Made by a program: the position numbers and the translations under genes. From positions 1 through 21,212 of the IMG/VR virus record IMGVR_UViG_3300030329_002116: a stretch of 21,212 nt of DNA. One strand, 5' to 3'. Shown in pieces: positions 4,196 to 21,212 of the stretch; within the stretch, counting starts at the first letter, position 1; each line of letters opens with the position of its first letter. Under the pieces are notes generated by a model. The model was not told the origin of the DNA. It searched no databases and was given only the letters and a program-made list of their open reading frames with translations. The stretch comes from a virus.

Positions 4196-4753
4196 TCACT
4201 GCTCCAGTTTACCCATACGGTGCAGGCAGGGAAGCTCGATGATGTCCCCCGGCGATGCCGCCGCAGGGCTGAGGTTGGAGGCGAACCCCTCACCCAGATA
4301 CCCAGACATGCGGAGGCAGGTAAGGACGAACTCAGAGCAGAAGAAACGCTCAGGGTCCACGTCCATGGGCTTGCCCCTCATATCCATGTATCTCCGCAGC
4401 CATCGGCACCACGTCCTCACGAACTGCCACCACGGTGCGTACTGCTTTCCCCAGTGCGACAGGGCGGTGGCCACGAGAACCTCCCTGTCGATCTTGTTGT
4501 CCTCAGGCTTGTGGAGTTCGTACCAGTCAATCCACTCGCCATCCTCTAGGCACTTGGACACTGGGAAGATCCTGATGCCACGCCCCTCCAGTGCCTCCAT
4601 GACACAGAGTCGACCGTGCATCCAGAGAGCGAACCCAACGTGTGAGGTTCTGGACTGGGTGAAGTACCTTATGAGCCAAGACCACCATCTCGTACCACGG
4701 AACGCTAGAACGTCACCGTTTCTGATCTTGTCTCTCACCTTTAGGTATTTCAT
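4196..4753 (-). CDS. YiiX/NlpC-P60-like permuted papain-fold hydrolase
   Basis: The 185-residue protein shows the order of a permuted papain fold: GDVLAF near residue 13, SHVGFA with H38, a conserved acidic site (MEALEG, E53), then FFCSEFV with C139 as the likely nucleophile. This resembles YiiX/YebB-type members of the NlpC/P60 superfamily, which cleave amide or ester bonds in peptidoglycan or lipid-linked substrates. There is no signal peptide, so a peptidoglycan target would require a partner or release at lysis. The ATG has CAGGAAG upstream and overlaps the previous gene by 41 bases. The neighbouring membrane and protease genes make a lysis-related role possible. The fold call is firm; the substrate is unknown. 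Confidence 0.78.
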   Translation of the reverse strand: MKYLKVRDKIRNGDVLAFRGTRWWSWLIRYFTQSRTSHVGFALWMHGRLCVMEALEGRGIRIFPVSKCLEDGEWIDWYELHKPEDNKIDREVLVATALSHWGKQYAPWWQFVRTWCRWLRRYMDMRGKPMDVDPERFFCSEFVLTCLRMSGYLGEGFASNLSPAAASPGDIIELPCLHRMGKLEQ

Positions 4754-5584: not shown

Positions 5585-6472
5585 TCATTTTCTCACCTCT
5601 GGGAGGACCAGCTTGATGGGCGTACCAAAAGGATAGGACTCCTCGGCCAGAACCTTTCCCGTCTCTGGGTCTAACACCTGCACCCTAGTTGGCGTGTCTA
5701 GGATCTTCCGCAACTCCTCCCGCAGCTTTTTATTCTCGGCGTCCAGTTCGGCCAGCTTTTTTATCACCGCAGCCAGAGCGACTGTTCTGTCTTTGTCTGA
5801 TCCAAGCGGAGGGGCCTTACTGCTATCCCACTCTACCAGTTTGGTGTCCAGCTTGTCAGCCTCCCTCTCCAGAAAAGCATTCAACTGCTCCTTCGTGCAG
5901 GAAAAAAGATGCTCGTGGTTTTTTGACCCGTGAGAGGTTATGCCAAACAGCTTGCCGTTGTTGAACACCCCGCCGCCAGAGTCTCCATTGTTGAACACCC
6001 CCGACTCCACCCTGAACTGATTACGCTTTCCTTCTAGTGAGTCTATGTGGAATGTCCCCTCCCAAGTGAGGACCTTTCTCCGTGGCCCCTCCCCCTTCGG
6101 GTAGCCCAACCCCCTGTATTCCTTGCTGGGTTTTTCTGAGTCTGGCTGGACATTGGCAACAACCCCCTTCGTGTCCTTTGTCCACACACGAAACAGAGAA
6201 AGGTCGCTTTTCACATCCTCGGCAATCCATCGTGCTAATCCCCCCGTCCCGTCTGGGTTGTTGAAGTACACCGTCGTTCCGACCCTGCCCGTGCAATGCT
6301 GTGCCGACACACCTACGGTCACGACATCACCCTTCTTGATAAGCACCCCACTGCATCCACCAATCCTCACGACGGCGTTGTAGTAGGACGGCTTTACCTC
6401 GCGGTTCTCGGCCAGCACCGGCCTCAGCGTCAGGAGTCCGACTATAAGTGCTACTAGATTTTTTCCAGCCAT
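5585..6472 (-). CDS. Exported trypsin-like serine protease with C-terminal coiled coil
   Basis: Residues 1-21 form a signal peptide (charged start, hydrophobic core, VLA cleavage site). The trypsin-fold triad is visible: H59 in SAQHC, D90 in SDLSLF and S165 in NNGDSGGG. C40 and C60 sit where chymotrypsin-fold proteases have the disulfide around the histidine. After the protease domain, residues of about 228-262 form a heptad-like coiled coil (KKLAELDAENKKLREEL), then a short basic and hydrophobic end. It should cleave proteins outside the cytoplasmic membrane. The ATG follows AAGGTGG, and the start overlaps the XhlA-like gene by 19 bases. A role in lysis, in changing the host surface or in excluding other phages would fit; the sequence does not choose among them. 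Confidence 0.88.
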   Translation of the reverse strand: MAGKNLVALIVGLLTLRPVLAENREVKPSYYNAVVRIGGCSGVLIKKGDVVTVGVSAQHCTGRVGTTVYFNNPDGTGGLARWIAEDVKSDLSLFRVWTKDTKGVVANVQPDSEKPSKEYRGLGYPKGEGPRRKVLTWEGTFHIDSLEGKRNQFRVESGVFNNGDSGGGVFNNGKLFGITSHGSKNHEHLFSCTKEQLNAFLEREADKLDTKLVEWDSSKAPPLGSDKDRTVALAAVIKKLAELDAENKKLREELRKILDTPTRVQVLDPETGKVLAEESYPFGTPIKLVLPEVRK

Positions 6473-6735: not shown

Positions 6736-7213
6736 CCATGTATGTTAGCCCCACGGCTATTGCCGCCCAGATGTCCTTCTTTGCCCCATACAGCGGGCCG
6801 GGGGATTTCTTGTTTCCTACGCCAGACTCTTTACCGCCGAACCGATCAATCACAGCTTGGCGGATGTTGGCATCCTTAGCCCTCATGCTCTGGCAAAGGT
6901 TCATTTTTACATCTTTTCGGTACACAAACTCAACGGGTCCATGGAACCTTTCCCTAAACCGACCTATCCACACACAAGTGTCAAACACCTCAGCCCCAAC
7001 AGGCATCCCGTAGCAAGCGATCATCTCTATGACCAGTGTCGCTTCCGGCCAGATAATGCTCACGTAGTCCAGCAGGGACAGGAAGTATTCGTTTGCGTGT
7101 ATCCCAAGGTCAACAGGCTCACCGTCTTCTAGGACCACAAACGCCGACATCTTGTTGCCGGGGTCGACAGCCACAATAGTGCTTTCCGGCTTGTGTATCT
7201 TCAGATCAGCCAT
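6674..7213 (-). CDS. RuvC-like Holliday junction resolvase (RNase H fold)
   Basis: The protein starts its fold with IVAVDPGNK (D17), has the second acidic residue in LVIEMIACYGMPVG (E63), and ends with KKDIWAAIAVGL (D147). These three sites match the metal-binding residues of RuvC-type nucleases, and the intervening VFDTCVWIGRF and KDANIRQAVIDRFG segments are typical of phage members. It would cut branched DNA left by recombination or replication so that concatemers can be packaged. At 179 residues it is full length. The ATG has GGAGAGG about eight bases upstream and overlaps the preceding nuclease gene by eight bases. Confidence 0.85.
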   Translation of the reverse strand: MADLKIHKPESTIVAVDPGNKMSAFVVLEDGEPVDLGIHANEYFLSLLDYVSIIWPEATLVIEMIACYGMPVGAEVFDTCVWIGRFRERFHGPVEFVYRKDVKMNLCQSMRAKDANIRQAVIDRFGGKESGVGNKKSPGPLYGAKKDIWAAIAVGLTYMDEINAGLREAADTGRGEAEV

Positions 7214-7655
7214 CCCGCATCCTCTCCAATGGCAACAGTCTAGGGATCGGTATCAGGATACAAGGCTCCATGTCTGCCTCGTCCCCCCTGTCGACCCTTC
7301 CCATGTAGTTGATTGGGAACACCTCGTCAGTGACGGGGATGCACAGGTCGATATCCAAATAGCGGATAGCCAGAAACACAGGGACCCCCCCATACCTGCG
7401 TATGAGGTTCATGTTGATCCACTTCTTCAACGACAGCATGTACGTGTCGTATCTGTTGTGGTCAATTTTCCTATGCTTGATCTCCACGAAGAAGCCGACA
7501 TTAGCACCTTTGCTCTGCCTCGTCAGCCCCATGAAGTCTACGTGGTAGAACGGGGGGGTCTTCTTCAGGAAAGCCCCAGTCACCTTCTCTATCTGGTGAG
7601 CGAAGGACTTCTCCCTCTTTCTGTCTGCCGCGCTTTCGTAAACTGGGCGTGCCAC
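7206..7655 (-). CDS. PD-(D/E)XK-type nuclease
   Basis: The catalytic core is visible as D40 in FYHVDF and E58-x-K60 in FFVEIKHR, with E23 on the preceding helix, giving the usual alpha-beta-beta pattern of small PD-(D/E)XK nucleases. The following KKWINM and VFLAIRY segments fit the rest of the fold. Relatives include phage resolvase-like and VRR-Nuc-like enzymes, but I cannot place it further. The frame is open to a TTG at 7691, but GGAGGG lies five bases before a GTG at 7655, which is the better start. It overlaps the RuvC-like gene, so two branch- or end-cutting enzymes are made from adjacent coupled frames. Confidence 0.78.
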   Translation of the reverse strand: MARPVYESAADRKREKSFAHQIEKVTGAFLKKTPPFYHVDFMGLTRQSKGANVGFFVEIKHRKIDHNRYDTYMLSLKKWINMNLIRRYGGVPVFLAIRYLDIDLCIPVTDEVFPINYMGRVDRGDEADMEPCILIPIPRLLPLERMRDG

Positions 7656-7705
7656 GTCTTCCCTCCGGTGACAGGGGATATGTAGCGGCAACCCTCAGGG
7701 ATTCT

Positions 7706-9469: not shown

Positions 9470-9958
9470 TTAGAACGGAGTCTCTTCGTCCGTTGTAGTG
9501 GCTGTGGCGGCCTTCTGAGGACCGCTAGAGGTCTTGTAGAGACGGTCCAGCTTCGCAGCGATACTGTTATCGTTTGCGATGGTGGCCAGTGCCTCACCCC
9601 TAAAAGGGAACTCAAAACTGTCCCACACCTTCCCACTATCTGTGTGGTGGTGCTTGTTCACTAATTCGACAGTCATTCCGGTCAGGTCGCAGGAACCCCC
9701 CGGCTCAAGGTCCTTGAACTTGCCATCCCACCCCAAGTCCTTGAGGTACTCGGATGATCGCTCCACGTTGGAGTCACTGTTCATCCACAGCTTGACGGTC
9801 CTAGTGAACTTCGCGTCCACAACGAACTCGCCTTCTGCCCCAATGTACTTGTGGGGAAGGATCTCAATCCCAAAGTACGGGGTCTGCTTTTCTCCAGCAG
9901 TCCCGAAACCCTGACCCATAACTGTACACTCGTAACGACCTTCTTCGTAAGAACTCAT
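9470..9958 (-). CDS. SSB-like DNA-binding protein with acidic C-terminal tip
   Basis: The 162-residue protein has a beta-rich body (YECTVMGQGFG, YFGIEILPHKYI, FTRTVKLWMN, CDLTGMTVELVN) and a low-complexity linker ending DEETPF. An acidic tail closing with PF is the hallmark of single-stranded DNA-binding proteins that recruit partners, as in bacterial SSB (DDDIPF). Its start overlaps the Sak4-like stop as ATGA, and phage recombinases are commonly encoded beside such proteins. It probably coats single-stranded DNA for the recombinase. The fold itself is not proven from sequence alone. Confidence 0.75.
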   Translation of the reverse strand: MSSYEEGRYECTVMGQGFGTAGEKQTPYFGIEILPHKYIGAEGEFVVDAKFTRTVKLWMNSDSNVERSSEYLKDLGWDGKFKDLEPGGSCDLTGMTVELVNKHHHTDSGKVWDSFEFPFRGEALATIANDNSIAAKLDRLYKTSSGPQKAATATTTDEETPF

Positions 9959-10776
9959 GCTTCTCTCCTAGCTTCAACGATTGCACTCTTCAGGTTTGCC
10001 CAAGCCTCTGCCCCACTGTCCCCACCCTCAATCTCAGGTGGCAACCCAAAGCGGTTCTTGGCGTCAAACGCTGCTGAGTGCTGTGTGTGGAGGACTCTTG
10101 CGTGTCCACCTTTACCCTTGGCTCTGAGGCCAGACTCATCAACATCAATCCAGTAGTTGTAGAACAGCACAGCATCACACCAGCGATGCGTAAGGCTCCA
10201 CGTCTTGTGGTGAAGGTCAACCGTGAACCGGTCGTAATCCGCACCAACTGGGTTCCGGTAGGGTGCCACCTTTGTGTGGCCAAGAAGAACAATACCCATG
10301 TCCCTCTCATCCCTGAGTCGATCAAGGGCGTTTATGAATTCCCTCCAGTCGCTCAGTGAAACCTCGTACCCTCTGTTGAAACCCAAGAAGCCCCTGTCGG
10401 ACCAGTCGCCAGAGAACTCTCGGTTACACACGCTCTCGTGAGTAATCCTCTCAGCACAAGTGATGGTGTCGATCACCAAGAACCTGTAGTCATGGTCCTC
10501 CTCGGTAACCTCCCCAATCATCTCCATCATGTCACTGTAGGTCCTAGCAGGACGCAGGACAGGAAGATCAGCAGGAACAGACCCACTGGACTTCAGCAGA
10601 TCCCACGTGTCCTCCTGACCAAAAGGCATGACCAGACTCTTGGGAATGTTCCCAGCAAGGCTGCTCTTCCCCACCCCAGCCGGTCCAGCAATGACCATAG
10701 AAGGTGGCCGCTTCGCAATGCCCTTGCGGACATTCTTCAGCCAGTTAGAAGTTGTCTTCGTCTTAGTTGGTGGCAT
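9955..10776 (-). CDS. Sak4-like RecA-fold ATPase (single-strand annealing or recombinase)
   Basis: Walker A is GPAGVGKSS at residues 31-39, and Walker B is YRFLVIDTIT with D103. A later VLLGHTK matches the polar motif that follows in RecA-like AAA_24/Sak4 proteins. These phage ATPases promote DNA annealing and homologous recombination with help from an SSB, which is encoded just downstream here. The frame reaches 10845, but the ATG at 10776 follows ACGAAAGGGGAG and matches the usual N-terminus, giving 273 residues. It overlaps the upstream nuclease by 14 bases. Together the three genes form a compact recombination unit acting on replicating phage DNA. Confidence 0.85.
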   Translation of the reverse strand: MPPTKTKTTSNWLKNVRKGIAKRPPSMVIAGPAGVGKSSLAGNIPKSLVMPFGQEDTWDLLKSSGSVPADLPVLRPARTYSDMMEMIGEVTEEDHDYRFLVIDTITCAERITHESVCNREFSGDWSDRGFLGFNRGYEVSLSDWREFINALDRLRDERDMGIVLLGHTKVAPYRNPVGADYDRFTVDLHHKTWSLTHRWCDAVLFYNYWIDVDESGLRAKGKGGHARVLHTQHSAAFDAKNRFGLPPEIEGGDSGAEAWANLKSAIVEARREA

Positions 10777-11833
10777 CGTCTCCCCTTTCGTAACCAGAAA
10801 CTGCCGCCCACCACGCATCCATTGCTGCGTGCCAGACGTTTCCAAAAAACAGAGCGGGCTTCACTTCTTCGCGAACCCTCTCCAGTCCCATCACGTAGCG
10901 ATAGTGATGTTTTGTCGGGCAAAGCTGAAAACACTTCGCCCTGCTGTTCGTAAGCAATGACCTGTTACCCTGAGGTGAAGCCTCACCCTCAAGCTCAGGG
11001 TGTACATCCGCTGTGTGCTGCCAGTTCTGGCTGCTCGGGTCGTCATGGTGAGAACAGATGCCTAGGTATTGGCACGGCGTGTTCCACATCATGCAACCAG
11101 ATGGGTTGTACGGGGTCATCTGAGTTTTCTCCGTCCTCTTCATTGTGGCCGTCATGTCCTCTGACACCTGCCACAAAGAACGGTTGTATTGCTCTAGTTC
11201 CTCAGTCGTTAGCGTGATGCTCTTACGCTTGAAGAACTTGTCCCTGTTCTCCATCACTTCCTTCACAAGACGGACGTGATACATCTCCATGTTCTCTCTG
11301 TCTATGGACAGGAGTTCCTTGAGCGTTGCGTCTGAAACACGTTCCCCCATGTAGAGGCCAGTGTTCCTAGTGTGGGCGCGAACGGCCTCGGTTATCTTGC
11401 GTGGTTTTGTTGTTGGCTTCTTGACCACATCCCAGATGATGCCCCTGAGCGGAACGCCATTGGAGTACATCAGGATCTCGTAGTGCCTAGGCTGACTCTC
11501 GATCCTGAGGTTCCTCCAGTAATTGGCGTCAGGGTCAGCAATCGGCATTGATGTGGTCTTGTGGTCAACGAGGTAATGCTCGCCGTCCACTTTGATCAGC
11601 TTGTCGATCTTGCCTGCCAGAGTCCACTTCCTGCTTATTCGGCCCTTCGGGTCCAAGTTGCGGAGTGGGGCGGTATAGACCTTCTCTATTTCAACGATCT
11701 CATAGTTAGAGTTGGTGCTGTGGTACTCGGCGGCATAGGCCGTCATCAAGGCACTGCACTGGGTGGCTACCAACTCGTTGTCCTTGGCCATTTCATCTAT
11801 GACCGAGAACGCCTCACGCAAGTATGCGTACAC
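10763..11833 (-). CDS. RecB/Cas4-like PD-(D/E)XK exonuclease, apparently circularly permuted
   Basis: The catalytic centre is GKID (D77) and VDHKTT (D90, K92), followed by YWRNLRIESQPRHYE. Three cysteines at 247, 254 and 260 look like most of an Fe-S cluster. After a linker with HPEL the chain continues with LLTNSRAKCFQLCP (C301, C305), HHYRYVMG and ALFFGNVWHAAMDAWW (H335). In ordinary phage RecB-like exonucleases this last block is the N-terminus, carrying the first cluster cysteine and the catalytic-pocket histidine; here it is C-terminal. The GTG start has AAGGAGG upstream. Length, 356 residues, is about that of an intact enzyme, so nothing seems lost. It likely resects DNA ends for the Sak4/SSB pair. 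Confidence 0.85.
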   Translation of the reverse strand: MYAYLREAFSVIDEMAKDNELVATQCSALMTAYAAEYHSTNSNYEIVEIEKVYTAPLRNLDPKGRISRKWTLAGKIDKLIKVDGEHYLVDHKTTSMPIADPDANYWRNLRIESQPRHYEILMYSNGVPLRGIIWDVVKKPTTKPRKITEAVRAHTRNTGLYMGERVSDATLKELLSIDRENMEMYHVRLVKEVMENRDKFFKRKSITLTTEELEQYNRSLWQVSEDMTATMKRTEKTQMTPYNPSGCMMWNTPCQYLGICSHHDDPSSQNWQHTADVHPELEGEASPQGNRSLLTNSRAKCFQLCPTKHHYRYVMGLERVREEVKPALFFGNVWHAAMDAWWAAVSGYERGDDATN

Positions 11834-11858
11834 GGCTCGTCCTCCTTCGTGGGTGAAC

Positions 11859-12169: not shown

Positions 12170-12465
12170 GCGTCCTCGTGCTGCTCTTTGTACAAGCACA
12201 GCGCGATGAGCGAGTACACGGCCAAGTCACGGAAGCTGTCCTCCACGCTCTCGTGCTTCAGGCTTTTGTTCTTGGCGTACGTTTGGATGCGACGTATCTT
12301 GTCGTTCGCACGGACCATGCAGCCTATCCACGGGTCTATGCCAAACTCCTCTGATGCCCGAACATTGGAGAACGGGTCGTCTGGCCTTCCATAGTCAACC
12401 TGCTTTGAATCGTGCAGGTCACCTAGTAGCTTCAACTCGTGGTGGAACAGTTCGCTTCCTCGCAC
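12166..12465 (-). CDS. DUF1599 / MazG-like nucleotide pyrophosphohydrolase-type protein
   Basis: This 99-residue all-helical protein contains DSKQVDYGRPDDPFSN, RANDKIRRIQTYAKN and ESVEDSFRDLAVYSLIAL. That is the pattern of DUF1599 (nucleotide modification associated domain 1), related to MazG-type enzymes whose acidic helices bind magnesium. Such phage proteins may hydrolyse or handle nucleotides and so shift the pool for phage DNA synthesis; its activity is not shown. It starts with GTG at 12465 behind a G-rich site and overlaps the 3' end of the giant virion gene by 47 bases. It ends sharing CTAG with the opposing gene. Confidence 0.75.
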   Translation of the reverse strand: MRGSELFHHELKLLGDLHDSKQVDYGRPDDPFSNVRASEEFGIDPWIGCMVRANDKIRRIQTYAKNKSLKHESVEDSFRDLAVYSLIALCLYKEQHEDA

Positions 12466-15400
12466 CTTTTACCCCCCTGCTCAAGTTCTTGAATGACCCC
12501 AATGCTCTGCCCCGGCTTTCTGACCATTTCCTGTCAGTTAGACGGGGGAAGTTCTCTTCAGTGTAGCCCTGCTGCACCAGCCACTCAACAGCTTCCTTCT
12601 TCTCTTCCAGAAGTTCCTTCTGTTCAGCGTCCAGCATCTGCTTTCTCTTGGCAATAGGAAGCTTCATCACTTCCGGCTTCTGCTTCCAAAGCACATGATT
12701 AGGCTTGCCTAGTACAGCTATCCTTTTGTTTATGTTGTTTTGGTACACCTGCTGTCCAATTTTCTCAGCTTCGTCGTTGTAGGGGAGGCCAGCCCACTTC
12801 TTTTTTAGAATCGCCTGCGACGCTGACCTCGCCGCACTCCAGTTTGAGTTCCAAAGGTTTTCGACATACCCTTCTGTAGGCTCTTCGATATCCACGGCCT
12901 CTGAGTCGACCAGTGTTTTGAACACTTGCCCCGTGAGTCTGGTGTACTCTTCATACTCTGGCTTAGTTAGGTAACGCCTAACACCCTTGATCAGGAAGTA
13001 TGGGTCCAGTTCCTCTATGCCTTTTCGATCCTTGTCTGGGTTTTGGTCGTTCCATCTCCTTAGGATCTTGTCAGCAACCCCCTCGTGTACACTCTTTGTT
13101 TTTGCTGGAACAAGCAGTTTGTACCAGAAGCTGGACTTGTGAGAAGAGTTCGGCGTCCAGTTCTCTGGGATCTTTTTGCCGTACTGGTCGTACTTGTCGT
13201 ACTCCTCGAAAAAGGGAAGCTCCATCTTCATGATGTTCCCCTTCATCCACATCTCAAACCGACCGTCATCCCCCCAGTCCCGCCTCTCTTTTTTGTATTC
13301 CCTGCTTGCCTTGCGGATTTGCTTGTACATATTGGGAACGGCAGACGTTATGAATCCCCCAGCGATCCTTCTCGCGCCGTTTTTTGGGTTGTTCAAAAAC
13401 ACCGACAGGTCTGCAACCGTCCTCAGGAATGTCTTGTCTTTGGTCATCTCCACAACAGACTCTGTAAGCTTGAACCACGCCTCCTCTAGGTTCACCGACT
13501 TACTTCTGGCCATGACAACGATGTCTTTTGATAGCGACAGCATGGTCGCAAAAGGTTCTATGCGAGCGTAAGACCGGTATATCGCGTCCCCGTTTTCTGC
13601 ATGGCCAACCTTGATGGACATCGCCGGTATCGTCTGAGACCTAGCCTGACCAGCCCACTCCTTTGGCTGCGATGGGACAGTGCCAGTTATCCATGGCTCC
13701 TCCTCGTCGTCGCCCAGCATCATAAGGACAATGGAATAAGCGATCATCTGCTGGACGCTTTTCTCGCCCATCCCAGACCAATCGCCCTCAGTGAATCCCT
13801 TGTACACTCCGTATCCCCACTGCCCAGCACCCAGAGGAGAATAAGAGATTCCCTTCCGCAAGATGTTGTCGGGTGTCAGGATAAACGGCATGAGCCACTT
13901 AGCACCGGGGACTGTCCCCCTGACTGTAAGTGCTGCACGTCCAGCAATGGAAGGCTCGCCTTGGAACACTGTGTCACGAGCTTTGACGAGTGCGTCTGTC
14001 CATAGACGGTGTGATTTATCGTTGATCACGTTGTCCATGTACTGACCAACCTGATCGTCGACAAGCCCCTGAAACTTCGCATCCCTGTAGGCCAGTGCCA
14101 CAACCTCTGCGTGGGCGTTCACACTCTTTTGCCACGAGTCCATTGCGTTCAGGAATGTTGTGCCGGTAAGTCTAAGACCCCTTCCAGCAATAACCGCAGC
14201 CTTTCCGCCAATACCCCTGTTCCATGACCCCGGCCCGCCGATCTGCTTCAGGTGAGAACTCTCTATCTTGGTTCTGGACTTGTCTACACCCAGAGCCTTC
14301 TCGAACGCACTGTCCTCAGTGACTATGGATCTCCAGAAATACTTGGCCCCTTGAATAAACCCCTTGCCCATGGCCACGTAAAGGTGGGGAAGCTCACCAA
14401 TCCTAGGTGCCATTTTGTCACCAAGGCCAGCCTGCACGGCCACCTCGTTCAACAAGGATTCGGCAATCCTCTTGGGTCCAAACTCATAAGCGGACATCAA
14501 TATGTTACTGCTTATGTTCGCTGCGTGGGTCAGGGGTCCAGACAAGATGAAGTTGACCCAAATCTCATAGGCGATACTGGCTACAGTGCCAACCTCGCCC
14601 TTCTCCCTCATGACCTCGTACACGAACGACTCCACAGCTTCCCTGCTGCCCATGTACTTTTCTAGCTGATTGAAGTCCCAGCCCTTGGCTATCAGGGAAC
14701 GCTCCACCCTTCGGTTTTCGTTGTGCCATTCCTGTCGCAGCTTCTTCACCTTGTCCCACTGCTTGAGAGTCTTCGCCCTGCCGATCCTTCTTTTCAGCCT
14801 CTCGGACGGAGCATACAGGGCCTTGTCGATTGCTCGCTTCGACCGGTCCTTCACCGACTCAACCCTGTCCCTCATCATCGAGCCAGCACGGCCCCACTCA
14901 GAAGCAGCCTCGTTGGAGTACATAGCCAGCCAAATCTTCTGCTGAGTCATCCTCTCCATCTCAGCCGCTGTCAGCTTTCCAGCGTCCAGCATCGAAAGGA
15001 TGTGGGCATGGCCCATCTCGGCAAGCACCCAGTCCTTTGACGTGAACACCTGACCCTCTAGTCCCTTCTGGATAAGACTCTTTATTGTTCCCAGAGGGTC
15101 CTTGTTGAACTCAGACTGCCCTTTGACCTCGTCCTCTAGGTGGGTCCGTATTTCTTTAGGTGTTCTGATGTGTGCAAAAGCACGCACCTTGTCCACGGCT
15201 TGCCTAGTCCGCTCGTCGACATGATGCTTTGAGGTTTCGTCCCAGTAGTCTTCAGTGAGTTCTAGGTCGTGAATCTTTACGGACAGACGGTCGGTACTGG
15301 CTTCTAGCTGCTTGTACTCGTTCGGTGATGGAACGACGAACTGCGCCCTGTTGAGCAGCTTCCACTCAGCGTCGCCAGCCTTCACGTCTCGGGTCCTTTT

Positions 15401-18400
15401 GCCCGACAGCATCCTCTTCCTGATCTGGTCAACGAAACGAACCAGTTCCCCATCAGCCTCCTTGAGGAGGGCGTTGTACTCCTTAGACCAAACTGAGTCC
15501 ACAACCTTCTTGAGGGCCTTGCTGTCGTTTTCCCTGAGCCAACGAACGATCTGGCCCCTCTCGTTGCCAGACCAAATCTCCTTGATCAGGTCCATCACCT
15601 TCCCCTCGTGCGGGGAGTTCCTCAGTGCCATCTCCCCGTTCAGGGTGGCCCAGCCCATCTCCTCAATCTCGATTTCATCCAACCCGTTGAATGAACCCAA
15701 GGACCACCGGTCGTCGTAGTCCTCGTCGGCCATTTCGGAAAACTCACCGATAGTGTCGGATGGCTCCCAAGACATGATACGCATGCCAATACTGCTCACC
15801 CGATACCGCCCATCCTCATCTTTTATGACAAGCTCTCGGTCCATCAGGGTGTCAACGTCTATGTCCCCGATGTCTCCCTCTTCCAAGTAGAGTCCGGTTC
15901 CGTCCCGCTGATCAATGGAAGCCGCTGCGTCAAAGAAGGCTTCGATATCAGTCGACTCAATGTCAACGTCTTCGTCCGAGTAGCCCTGCCTGACTCCGGT
16001 GTACTGCTTTTCAATGTCGTCGTTCACAGCTTCAACGATTGTCTCTCGTGAATCTTCAGCCGGTTCCTCGACGGATGCAGCTTCCTCCACAGCAGAGTCC
16101 AGCAGTTCGTCATACTTCTTCTCGGTGGCTGAGACCACCTTCTTGACCAGAGAGTCACCGCCGTCATAGGACTTCAAGATCACGATCTTGGTGTTGCCGG
16201 ACTTCGTCCTTACGGTCACAACTACAGCGGAATTCGAGGCGAAGTTCTTCTGCACAACCTTGCTGCCACGCTTCTCAAGATCGGCCACAGGCTCCTCGGC
16301 CCACTCTGGAAGACCCTTCTTGAGTACGTGCTTACGGCTCTTCTTTGCGGTCTTCCGTGGCTTCTTGCGTCTCGACTTCTTTTTTGTCGTGTCTACGACA
16401 GGCCTCTCGGCAATCCCCTCGATCCCCATGTCCGATGCGACCTCGTTGAACACTGAGGTCATACCCCTGTACAGCTTGTCTCGGAATAGGGAGTTCCTGA
16501 TTCGACGCAACCAGTCCCGCATCATCTCAAAGGCGTTGCTGTCCGTCTTGGCGATCTTTGAAACAAGGCCGGTGGTGATAAAGTGGTCGTCCATCAGGTA
16601 AGCGAGGGACTCCTCCCTGATCAACTCGTCTAGCCTCGATGCGTTTGCTTCGCCCCGATAGTCAGAGTAAGGGTCAACGTCCAATCCCTGAGCAGCCTCG
16701 AACTGCTCCAAGAAGTTCTTTTTGCCCTGCTCAAGCAGCTTCCCGTATTTCGAGTCGTCAGCCAGCGTCTTGTAGAGACGGTCCCAGACACCCCCGAACT
16801 TCTTCTTTAGCTCATGCGTGAACTCATGGGCAAAGGTTCCGGTGATGGCCTTTCTCATACCCTCTTGATCAAGAACCCCGTCCTTCATGTGCTTGTTGAT
16901 CGTTGGGACGGTTATGTAGATCCCGTCTCCAGAGTAAAGACCCTTGATGTTGGGGTCGGATGTCTGGACAAACCGGATGTCCCTGCCGTTGCGGGTCTCG
17001 TTACTAAGCTCCTTGGCAATGGACAGCATTCTGACAGCGGTGTCTTCGTCTGCGTCCTTTGGTATGAGGTCCAAGTGACCAACGATCTTGGCGTCAGGGT
17101 CCTGCTGAAGGATGACTTGGGGGACCTCAACCTTGAGTTGCTCCGCTGCTGGGGGGGCGGGGACAACGTCACTGGTCACGCTTTCCGCCGGAACCTTTTG
17201 TCCCATCCTCTCCGTGATGATTTCAAGCAACTCCTTGCCAACATTCGTGGCCTCGAAATCACCACCGTCAAGCCGACTGGCAACACCCCTCGCCGCCTCT
17301 CTTGTCTTATCGTCTCGCCCCTCGTCCTCGGCCACGGACTCCCAGTATTCAAGCTCTGCCTCGTTTTCTGCCTTGCTGGACAAGTCGGAAAGGTATTTCG
17401 ATAGCTGGCCATCGGCGGCGGCTTGCCGGTTCTCCTCTTTCTTTAGGTCTCCGTATTCTCTCTCAAACGATTCCCTAACCTCGTCAGGCATGATGAGAAC
17501 GGAGTTTCGGCTCGGGTCGATCATGAACTTCCAAGCCTTCTCGGCCCCACCATGCGCCAGCTTGGTGCCTCCCATCATGAACATAGTCTGGGAGGCAGTG
17601 TCTTTCAGTGCCTGATACATGGGAGACGTTTCAAAGGTCCCGTCGTCCCCTATCCATGCGTTCCGGTACTTTCCTTCCGGCATGGTCGCGACACGGGTCA
17701 TCTCTTGTAGCACCGTCGTTATCTGCTCTTCAGTCATCTCGGCCAAGAACTGCTTGCCGAACTCTTTGTTCAGGAAGCCCCACATGCCATGGCCAACGGA
17801 CTGACTAAGCCCTTTTTCTAAACCACCCAAGCCAACCATTTGAAACACAGACATCACGCCCGCTTCGAACGCACCCTGCTTCCACGCTAGGTTGAAGGAT
17901 TGCCTAGGAGACAGTCCGTAGTCCAAACCCTCCACATAGGTGTCGTTGGCGGTGGACGCTGCGGCCCCTCCCGCCATGAAGGCGAACGAAGATCCTCCGG
18001 TGAACTTCGCAGTCGCTGCCGCTAATGCGGCTTGTGTGTAAGACCTAGAGGCACCGTACAGGTTGTCGTTGACCCACTTTCTGGTTTCCCCCAACTCGTC
18101 CGCTGTCATCCCCAAGTCCATCCCCATGCTTCTGGCTTGGGTTGAACGAACCATCCAGTTGGAAACCTCGGGGTCAACCATCCTCGCGACAGCAGCCCCT
18201 AACGACTCAACACCTGCGGCGGGGCCGCTGGTGAGGGACTGCATCTCCCAAGGCATCCAGCTATCGGATCGCTCCGCAGCTTGTTTCTCAGCCTCGGTCC
18301 TCTTCCAGTCCTGTATGTACTGGAGGTCCCTGAGGCGTTCCAGTTCCCGTTGCTCGTGGCCTGCTGACCAACCCTCTCTTGTTTGCTTGAGGGCGTCGAT

Positions 18401-18547
18401 AAACTCGTTGGTATAAACACCGCCCCCCGAAGGGGACTCGTGACCAACGAGGTCGATCAGGCTAGGCTGTCCCAGAACGTCCCTGTAAGCCTCTTGGGCG
18501 TGCAGGGGTTCTTCGTACAACCCTAGCTGGATGGGGCCATTGGCCAT
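12419..18547 (-). CDS. Giant virion-type polyvalent protein with HExxH metallopeptidase site
   Basis: The 2042-residue product looks like a large internal virion or injection protein. Hydrophobic, alanine- and glycine-rich helices lie at about 165-255. A zincin site, FAHEFTHELKKKF, gives H574, E575 and H578, with E645/E646 in IREESLAYL as a possible third ligand. A basic block (KKKSRRKKPRKTAKKSRK) lies near 719-740, followed by an acidic stretch. Residues near 1330-1350 (NFILSGPLTHAANISSNIL) and 1545-1575 (WLMPFILTPDNILRKGI) match blocks seen in phage polyvalent proteins. T7 gp16 plays a similar size and position role, with a transglycosylase instead. The peptidase may open the cell envelope or process virion proteins. 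The ATG has GGGAG upstream. Confidence 0.82.
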   Translation of the reverse strand: MANGPIQLGLYEEPLHAQEAYRDVLGQPSLIDLVGHESPSGGGVYTNEFIDALKQTREGWSAGHEQRELERLRDLQYIQDWKRTEAEKQAAERSDSWMPWEMQSLTSGPAAGVESLGAAVARMVDPEVSNWMVRSTQARSMGMDLGMTADELGETRKWVNDNLYGASRSYTQAALAAATAKFTGGSSFAFMAGGAAASTANDTYVEGLDYGLSPRQSFNLAWKQGAFEAGVMSVFQMVGLGGLEKGLSQSVGHGMWGFLNKEFGKQFLAEMTEEQITTVLQEMTRVATMPEGKYRNAWIGDDGTFETSPMYQALKDTASQTMFMMGGTKLAHGGAEKAWKFMIDPSRNSVLIMPDEVRESFEREYGDLKKEENRQAAADGQLSKYLSDLSSKAENEAELEYWESVAEDEGRDDKTREAARGVASRLDGGDFEATNVGKELLEIITERMGQKVPAESVTSDVVPAPPAAEQLKVEVPQVILQQDPDAKIVGHLDLIPKDADEDTAVRMLSIAKELSNETRNGRDIRFVQTSDPNIKGLYSGDGIYITVPTINKHMKDGVLDQEGMRKAITGTFAHEFTHELKKKFGGVWDRLYKTLADDSKYGKLLEQGKKNFLEQFEAAQGLDVDPYSDYRGEANASRLDELIREESLAYLMDDHFITTGLVSKIAKTDSNAFEMMRDWLRRIRNSLFRDKLYRGMTSVFNEVASDMGIEGIAERPVVDTTKKKSRRKKPRKTAKKSRKHVLKKGLPEWAEEPVADLEKRGSKVVQKNFASNSAVVVTVRTKSGNTKIVILKSYDGGDSLVKKVVSATEKKYDELLDSAVEEAASVEEPAEDSRETIVEAVNDDIEKQYTGVRQGYSDEDVDIESTDIEAFFDAAASIDQRDGTGLYLEEGDIGDIDVDTLMDRELVIKDEDGRYRVSSIGMRIMSWEPSDTIGEFSEMADEDYDDRWSLGSFNGLDEIEIEEMGWATLNGEMALRNSPHEGKVMDLIKEIWSGNERGQIVRWLRENDSKALKKVVDSVWSKEYNALLKEADGELVRFVDQIRKRMLSGKRTRDVKAGDAEWKLLNRAQFVVPSPNEYKQLEASTDRLSVKIHDLELTEDYWDETSKHHVDERTRQAVDKVRAFAHIRTPKEIRTHLEDEVKGQSEFNKDPLGTIKSLIQKGLEGQVFTSKDWVLAEMGHAHILSMLDAGKLTAAEMERMTQQKIWLAMYSNEAASEWGRAGSMMRDRVESVKDRSKRAIDKALYAPSERLKRRIGRAKTLKQWDKVKKLRQEWHNENRRVERSLIAKGWDFNQLEKYMGSREAVESFVYEVMREKGEVGTVASIAYEIWVNFILSGPLTHAANISSNILMSAYEFGPKRIAESLLNEVAVQAGLGDKMAPRIGELPHLYVAMGKGFIQGAKYFWRSIVTEDSAFEKALGVDKSRTKIESSHLKQIGGPGSWNRGIGGKAAVIAGRGLRLTGTTFLNAMDSWQKSVNAHAEVVALAYRDAKFQGLVDDQVGQYMDNVINDKSHRLWTDALVKARDTVFQGEPSIAGRAALTVRGTVPGAKWLMPFILTPDNILRKGISYSPLGAGQWGYGVYKGFTEGDWSGMGEKSVQQMIAYSIVLMMLGDDEEEPWITGTVPSQPKEWAGQARSQTIPAMSIKVGHAENGDAIYRSYARIEPFATMLSLSKDIVVMARSKSVNLEEAWFKLTESVVEMTKDKTFLRTVADLSVFLNNPKNGARRIAGGFITSAVPNMYKQIRKASREYKKERRDWGDDGRFEMWMKGNIMKMELPFFEEYDKYDQYGKKIPENWTPNSSHKSSFWYKLLVPAKTKSVHEGVADKILRRWNDQNPDKDRKGIEELDPYFLIKGVRRYLTKPEYEEYTRLTGQVFKTLVDSEAVDIEEPTEGYVENLWNSNWSAARSASQAILKKKWAGLPYNDEAEKIGQQVYQNNINKRIAVLGKPNHVLWKQKPEVMKLPIAKRKQMLDAEQKELLEEKKEAVEWLVQQGYTEENFPRLTDRKWSESRGRALGSFKNLSRGVKGARKRTVPPRVEATR

Positions 18548-20186: not shown

Positions 20187-21212
20187 TTATCCTGCTCCTA
20201 ACTGCCCCCAAGGGAAATTGTGTGCGTCGCGGCCTCCCGCTCCCGAAGCACCCACCTGCTGCGCCATGTTGAAGGCATCTACCCCACCGAGTGACGACGA
20301 GAAGTCAACGCCCGTTATCAGTGCGACCATCTGGTCCGCAGCGGACGCAGCAATGGCGGCACGGTTCTGCAACCCTTGGTTGTATATGTCGCGGCGACCC
20401 GCAGCGGCGGAACCTGCGGCTCCCGACATGGCATTTTGATAGGCGGTCGACCCCGGCGAGACGCCTGCTTGGAACATGCTCTGACCGAGATCGGATCTCC
20501 TTTGCTTGTACGCCCCGCCGTAATCCCTGAGAGCGTCTTGCTCGGCTATATCAATTGCTCTCATGGTCTGATCCATGGTCCCGCCGATAAGCCCCATGCT
20601 CGCCTGCAATCCGTAGAGTTCGAGCAGTCTCGATTCCTTATCCGCAGCGTCACCTTTTGTAAAGAGAGCGGCCAATTCGGGGTTGTCCGGCAGTTTTTGT
20701 GACCAGTCAGTTGGAATACTGTCTTCCAACTCAGCCAGAGTGCCATGGTCGGGGTCGAACAGCTTTGTGTTAAATCTGCTCAGAGCGGACATTGACGCTT
20801 GGTCAAAGAAAGCCTGAGACTGTGGCGAGAGGTGCGGAAAGTTGTACGGTTGTTGGGCTTGTTCGTTAGCCATTGGGTCAGCCTCGTCTGTTGGTTCTTC
20901 GACTGGTATAAGCGGCTCGCCGGGGGGCTGATTACCGAGGTCAGGATCGGGTCCGATGAGCAACGGGCCGTCTGTTGGTTCTTCGACTGGTATAAGCGGC
21001 TCGCCGGGGGGCTGATTACCGAGGTCAGGATCGGGTCCGATAGGACCACCAAGAGTGTTATAAGGTACTGGGTCTGGAGTTGTCTCTGGTGGATCGAGGA
21101 CCGTGGGTCCGTCATAAAAACTAAACGTGTCTGCGTAGGCTCTGCGAGAGGCGTCGGTGGCCTCTGCCCCGTACAGTTCAGGAAAGGCTTCTGCCAGCGG
21201 ATGTGAGCCGGT
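20187..21212 (-). CDS. Virion-type protein, 3' part only (5' end beyond the window)
   Basis: The frame stays open to the right edge, so at least 341 residues are visible and the start is outside. The visible part begins THE-type structural sequence (FPELYGAEA, RRAYADTFSFYD), then a proline- and acid-rich repeat region (two copies of GPDPDLGNQPPGEP). It ends in a helical, alanine- and glycine-rich domain (LLELYGLQASMGLIGGT, SGAAGSAAAGRRDIYNQ). An internal ATG at 20873, with GAGG eight bases upstream, could begin a separate 228-residue protein. It lies upstream of the other two virion-type genes in one tight cluster. No family is recognised. Confidence 0.7.
   Translation of the reverse strand, partial: TGSHPLAEAFPELYGAEATDASRRAYADTFSFYDGPTVLDPPETTPDPVPYNTLGGPIGPDPDLGNQPPGEPLIPVEEPTDGPLLIGPDPDLGNQPPGEPLIPVEEPTDEADPMANEQAQQPYNFPHLSPQSQAFFDQASMSALSRFNTKLFDPDHGTLAELEDSIPTDWSQKLPDNPELAALFTKGDAADKESRLLELYGLQASMGLIGGTMDQTMRAIDIAEQDALRDYGGAYKQRRSDLGQSMFQAGVSPGSTAYQNAMSGAAGSAAAGRRDIYNQGLQNRAAIAASAADQMVALITGVDFSSSLGGVDAFNMAQQVGASGAGGRDAHNFPWGQLGAG
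20885..21041. repeat. Perfect in-frame tandem duplication, 84-bp period
   Basis: The 73 bases at 20885-20957 recur without change at 20969-21041, a period of 84 bases or 28 codons. The copies differ only in the short joint between them. The repeat encodes a proline-rich, acidic linker, and the reading frame is kept across both copies. Confidence 0.95.

Follow-up and report, generated by a model that had tools for sequence, protein, structure and literature searches.

Evidence for a Circularly Permuted RecB/Cas4-like Nuclease Conserved in Phage Recombination Modules

Introduction

Can a RecB/Cas4-like nuclease carry at its C-terminus the block that usually opens the protein and still be a natural enzyme, or is such a gene simply broken? 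This question is raised by a locus of an IMG/VR virus record, a metagenomic virus fragment of 21,212 bases, which is the whole stretch of DNA that was analysed and which we call the window. A sequence-only reading of the window had proposed that the order is natural. Natural circular permutations are documented in phage and defence enzymes, i.e., in DNA adenine methylases (PMC7824862) and in the HD domain of Cas10 (PMC3150331); these are permuted nucleic-acid enzymes like that of the window, with unrelated folds. Searches of the open literature, which did not extend to most papers behind subscription or to most preprints, gave no description of a permuted RecB/Cas4 nuclease.

The Nuclease Gene and Its Parts

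The gene and its parts, all on the minus strand, are the following:

11841..11847 (-): Shine-Dalgarno-like AAGGAGG preceding the GTG start, read from the sequence
10763..11833 (-): permuted PD-(D/E)XK (RecB/Cas4-like) nuclease gene, GTG start, 356 aa
11006..11833 (-): body, residues 1-276, matching PF12705 profile positions 87-246 and positions 69-329 of a profile made from conventional-order proteins only
11558..11605 (-): catalytic core D77 ... D90-H91-K92, with D77 and K92 invariant and D or E at 90 in 59 homologues of the window order and 6 of a second permuted order
11054..11095 (-): cysteines C247, C254 and C260, putative 4Fe-4S ligands, invariant in the same 59 and 6 homologues
10964..11005 (-): linker VHPELEGEASPQGN, residues 277-290, formed of the ancestral C-terminal tail (HxEL) and the ancestral N-terminal leader
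10766..10963 (-): head, residues 291-356, the usual N-terminal block (LLTNSR..C305..G, FFG..H335), matching PF12705 positions 3-50 and phrog_1218 positions 5-59

The open reading frame, the strand and the residue numbers given by the sequence-only reading were all exact, including DHK at 90-92 and the three cysteines of the body. The ribosome-binding signal that it had seen is also there, as AGGAGG lies about 7 bases 5' of the GTG start. The body corresponds to the usual C-terminal three quarters of the enzyme and contains D77, DHK 90-92, QxxxY (114-118) and cysteines 247/254/260, while the translation places C301, C305, CP (305-306), FFG (329-331), H335 and WW (342-343) in the head. An identical protein is encoded by an IMG/VR contig (L001).

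Several other features of the window were observed. It encodes a trypsin-like serine protease with an apparent signal peptide (5585-6472, minus strand; PF00089, PF13365), a second PD-(D/E)XK gene from another family (7206-7691, minus strand; PF24579, PDDEXK_14) and a protein matching Peptidase_C92 (4196-4753, minus strand), itself a permuted papain-like amidase family. A 2042-aa open reading frame (12419-18547, minus strand) matches no Pfam family and perhaps encodes an internal virion protein; judged by eye, a part of it is similar to an 813-aa open reading frame at the start of L019. Two adjacent plus-strand frames (205-483 and 487-966) look by eye like tandem paralogues sharing a YPW..W.DG..WE...G.DF.C pattern, and a direct repeat lies near the right end (20780-21115), with the translated repeat DPILTSVISPPASRLYQSKNQQT known from the list of open reading frames only.

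Body and Head Match the Family in Swapped Order

The PF12705 profile matches the window nuclease in two pieces, residues 23-260 aligning to profile positions 87-246 and the last 70 amino acids to positions 3-50. When the two parts are searched separately, as the sequence-only reading had suggested, each is significant alone (E 2.6e-9 for the body and 2.3e-7 for the tail), the body falling on the C-terminal and the tail on the N-terminal part of the profile. The exonuclease family phrog_1218 is matched in the same way, by residues 6-263 on positions 76-332 and by the tail on positions 5-59. Over the two pieces, the scores are 64 bits for PF12705 (cut-off 22) and 101 bits for phrog_1218. Conventional relatives give a single head-to-tail match to both families.

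The order was also evaluated by a rotation scan, in which the window protein was rotated in three-residue steps and scored against a profile built from conventional-order proteins only. In its native form, the protein matches this profile in two swapped pieces (153 + 51 bits), and the best score, 217 bits in one piece, is obtained by rotating it at residue 288-291. Conventional controls peak at zero rotation, these controls being themselves part of the scoring profile. The nuclease thus meets the family by its significant PF12705 and phrog_1218 matches, but not by the usual order (head, D, ExK, cysteines), as its body precedes its head. Because of this order, and because a full-length match is reached only after rotation, we conclude from sequence comparison that the window protein is a permuted variant of the PD-(D/E)XK RecB/Cas4 family and no ordinary member of it. 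Annotation by reading domains in sequence along the chain describes such enzymes only by half: with Pfam as with PHROGs, the best stretch is merely a partial one.

The junction preserves the traces of the former ends. The near conventional relatives L066, L075 and L078 end in ...IHPELEQ, ...PHQELVA and ...LHPELRN, and begin with ..QLLTHSR, ..ELLTNSR and ..VLTNSR, respectively; the HxEL motif is found at the C-terminal end of these three, of L103, of L227 and of others. Across the junction, the permuted proteins read ...VHPELEGEASPQGN-RSLLTNSR.... It follows from these HPEL endings and LLTxSR starts that the linker consists of the former C-terminus running into the former N-terminus; its length differs among relatives. 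The new termini fall between the helix bearing H335 and the next helix. The circular permutation claimed by the sequence-only reading is therefore supported by split and rotated profile matches, by many independent relatives of the same order, by the ancestral termini preserved where head and body meet and by the purifying selection on the moved block described below.

All the catalytic motifs of the family, H, D, (D/E)xK and QxxxY, are present in the window nuclease. In the alignment of thinned homologues, C247, C254, C260, C305, D77, K92, Q114, Y118, G331 and H335 are invariant (59/59), and position 90 is D or E throughout. The four-cysteine pattern is met by C305 in the head and C247/C254/C260 in the body. 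The fourth cysteine had been proposed to be C301 or C305: the latter holds and the former is rejected, C301 being a cysteine in only 24 of the 59 sequences.

A Natural Order Rather than a Broken Gene

Classification of the loci by order gave, before thinning and with contig repeats included, 141 in the window order (B), 55 in the conventional order (A) and 13 in a second permuted order (C); thinning left 59, 42 and 6, respectively. A normal gene whose head and body had been misordered by assembly, a chimera or a decaying pseudogene could in principle mimic the window order, all the more so since the window is a viral fragment of metagenomic origin and one homologue, in L063, is split across two frames. 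However, the same order is carried by eight IMG/VR loci with 74-100% identity, on contigs from separate samples, by further IMG/VR loci recovered by profile scans, by the complete genomes of the Tunturiibacter phages Tunturi_1 and Tunturi_2, and by bacterial genome contigs titled Planctomycetaceae and Deltaproteobacteria, with more within their phyla. Moreover, the active-site residues are conserved, and comparison of the window gene with four relatives gives for the head a nonsynonymous divergence (pN) of 0.04-0.08 against a synonymous divergence (pS) of 0.50-0.65, pN being far below pS in head and body alike. Judged by these divergences, the moved head block is under strong purifying selection. 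Independent genomes with the window order and purifying selection lead us to reject misassembly, frameshift and pseudogene, of which practically nothing remains, and bear out the proposal that the order is natural.

Three permuted nucleases (L231, L236 and L260) were seen in bacterial genomes belonging to the same phyla as those of L018 and L019; they probably lie in prophages, and that of L236 is divergent. The L063 gene (3310-4330) lies in two reading frames and is probably broken or affected by a sequencing error. When the Tunturi_2 protein was used as the only query against IMG/VR, no relative was recovered.

A Second Permutation with Another Breakpoint

Proteins of a second permuted form emerged when conventional and permuted sequences were combined in one scan, with L163 and L260 as further members; this form is found in L102, L106, L108-L113, L115, L118, L147, L163 and L260, the last of which sits in a bacterial genome. 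These proteins start at the catalytic ExK strand (MKVYLWETKTTSE...), continue with QxxxY, the three cysteines, HxEL and the head, and stop just past the motif-II D (GGKVDAIVE...), so that they are opened in the hairpin that separates the motif-II D from the ExK strand. Nine of them show no variation in E, K, Q, Y, the four cysteines, H and D. By rotation scoring, L118 reaches 283 bits full-length versus 176 + 96 in native form, and L106 297 bits versus 188 + 104; for L113, the same scoring gives no single full-length match and two pieces remain. The AF2 model of L118 is of moderate quality (pLDDT 80, pTM 0.69). Both permuted forms belong to the same family, join the old ends alike (HxEL ... 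LLTQS in the second) and lie in the same neighbourhood, but the second is opened between the motif-II D and ExK, unlike the window form. A second permutation with a different breakpoint exists in a sister clade.

Evolution of the Permuted Forms

The tree was built from rotated sequences and rooted on the conventional proteins of named phages. Proteins of conventional order branch off at the base, and the clades of permuted order are nested among conventional ones. The window order forms two clades (24 and 8 rows), and the second order one clade of 6 rows (support 93/99), grouped with conventional relatives (82/99). A single clade for all window-order rows is not rejected (p-AU 0.42 and 0.65) and beats the free tree in one data set; since the breakpoints of the two clades coincide, one origin of the window order is the simpler reading. 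A joint clade of both permuted kinds has a lower likelihood and is not rejected either (p-AU 0.06 and 0.34). Taken together, the tree and these values imply that trimming took place in no fewer than two different ways, whether independently or starting from one shared ancestor with a tandem duplication. Evolution thus appears to have rotated this enzyme at two different points.

The permutation would most likely have been produced by an in-frame tandem duplication followed by the loss of the outer parts. This route is inferred, because none of the loci sorted by means of the conventional profile contained a tandem dimer (head-body-head-body). An insert of about 25-40 aa ('RVMTKDGKK') had been considered as a marker tying one permuted clade to conventional forms. 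It was dropped: being absent from the conventional L164, L168 and L170 and from the second-type L163 and L260, it is labile and unusable as proof. A more speculative hypothesis, which we put forward only tentatively, is that permutation arose repeatedly and independently (once for the second breakpoint, once or twice for that of the window), favoured by the ease with which tandem copies form in recombination modules and by a cysteine cluster that keeps the old ends together, and that the new termini change docking on Sak4 or SSB.

Structure and Fold

The AF2 model of the window protein, built with 34 permuted homologues and without rows from named phages, is confident over the whole chain (pLDDT 92.5, pTM 0.86), only the last five residues being of very low confidence. 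Its best BFVD match, A0A6J5NSY1, an uncultured phage protein named only PD-(D/E)XK nuclease, covers the full length (TM 0.80/0.83), and the remaining matches are mostly partial or poor. Foldseek against the PDB gives weak matches only (best E 2e-3, TM up to 0.27 on the query), to AdnAB, AddAB, MGME1, Cas4 SSO0001 and RecE; such a result is expected, as a sequential aligner likely fails on a permuted chain, and it is no positive proof. A PDB sequence search with the permuted profile gave no match. The AddAB/AdnAB/RecB nuclease domains, Cas4, MGME1 and RecE carry the H, D, (D/E)xK and QxxxY motifs, AddB and Cas4 having in addition a four-cysteine cluster; unlike the window protein, to which their folds bear a weak likeness, all are in the conventional order.

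In the proposed fold, the ancestral C-terminus (...HxEL) would run into the ancestral N-terminus (LLTxSR...), the chain being opened anew between the metal-binding H335 helix and the following one. By inference from the Cas4/AddB fold, the four cluster cysteines should meet, with the former N- and C-termini next to each other and to the cysteines; this may be why the rotation is tolerated.

Neighbourhood and Role

Two genes follow the nuclease on the same strand:

9955..10776 (-): Sak4-like ssDNA annealing protein (RecA-like ATPase; phrog_124 E 6e-30, PF13479)
9470..9958 (-): probable single-strand DNA binding protein, from its position and the Tunturi annotation

The ATG of the Sak4-like gene overlaps the nuclease 3' end by 14 bases. 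The second frame has no family match in profile searches; the Tunturi phage gene at its position is annotated SSB, and a profile built from it recurs downstream of the nuclease. Where thinned loci extend at least 1.5 kb past the nuclease, it is followed by a Sak4-like gene in 25/29 conventional, 47/50 window-order and 6/6 second-order loci; for an SSB-like gene, the figures are 19/29, 47/50 and 5/6, respectively. The locus thus qualifies as an exonuclease-Sak4-SSB recombination module, its SSB resting on position and the Tunturi annotation. No cas1/cas2 or other CRISPR adaptation gene lies beside the nuclease, and no Cas-family match was obtained among the frames scanned, which were not all those of the window; the scanned neighbours are Sak4-like, probable SSB, replication initiation and resolvase genes.

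The closest known systems share this setting. The nearest conventional phrog_1218 Cas4/RecB-like phage exonucleases in IMG/VR (L066, L075, L078, L227, L103), like those of named phages (Gordonia phage Azira gp39, Microbacterium phage Triscuit gp78), have the same motifs, cysteine cluster and RecA/Sak4-like neighbour, with the HxEL tail in the near ones, but carry the head first and the body second. Tunturi_1 gp59 and Tunturi_2 gp56, annotated 'exonuclease', have the permuted order (35-37% identity) and are followed by Sak4-like and SSB genes; they differ from the window by one small gene between nuclease and Sak4, and their annotation is silent on permutation.

As all three orders sit upstream of Sak4-like and usually SSB-like genes, the role is likely end resection for phage single-strand annealing, activity and polarity being inferred. 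From gene order, the nuclease would supply single strands that the Sak4-like protein and SSB then use to recombine phage DNA. The fold could nevertheless be kept for another task, such as acting on intermediates of replication or packaging, the Sak4 gene being adjacent only through shared regulation: there are no activity data, recombination is suggested by gene order alone, and the window also encodes a Holliday junction resolvase and replication genes. We find this rather unlikely, as a Sak4-like gene lies downstream of the nuclease in almost every locus, whichever of the three orders it has, and a RecA/Sak4-like gene follows it in most conventional relatives of named phages. It is still less probable, in our opinion, that the C-terminal head is donated to the active site of an adjacent subunit, in a domain-swapped dimer, instead of completing that of its own chain; no test in this analysis excludes it and the linker varies in length, but the monomer was modelled with high confidence along its length. 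We thus have considerable confidence that the window encodes a complete RecB/Cas4-type domain, circularly permuted with the old HxEL/LLTxSR ends fused and new ends past the H335 helix, which likely resects ends for Sak4-like/SSB recombination; activity, Fe-S cluster and folding in cis are unproven.

Conclusions

The sequence-only reading had not foreseen that the order defines a large clade, that conventional relatives persist in the same neighbourhood and that a second breakpoint exists. An ordinary enzyme class in an unusual order is, in this case, a conserved family. As a rule, natural permutations come to light when the event is long past and no ancestral form stands beside them. Here, conventional and two differently permuted forms share one kind of recombination module, and the ancestral ends are readable in the linker. 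Hence, the duplication and trimming route, and its effect on activity and partners, are directly testable with natural proteins.
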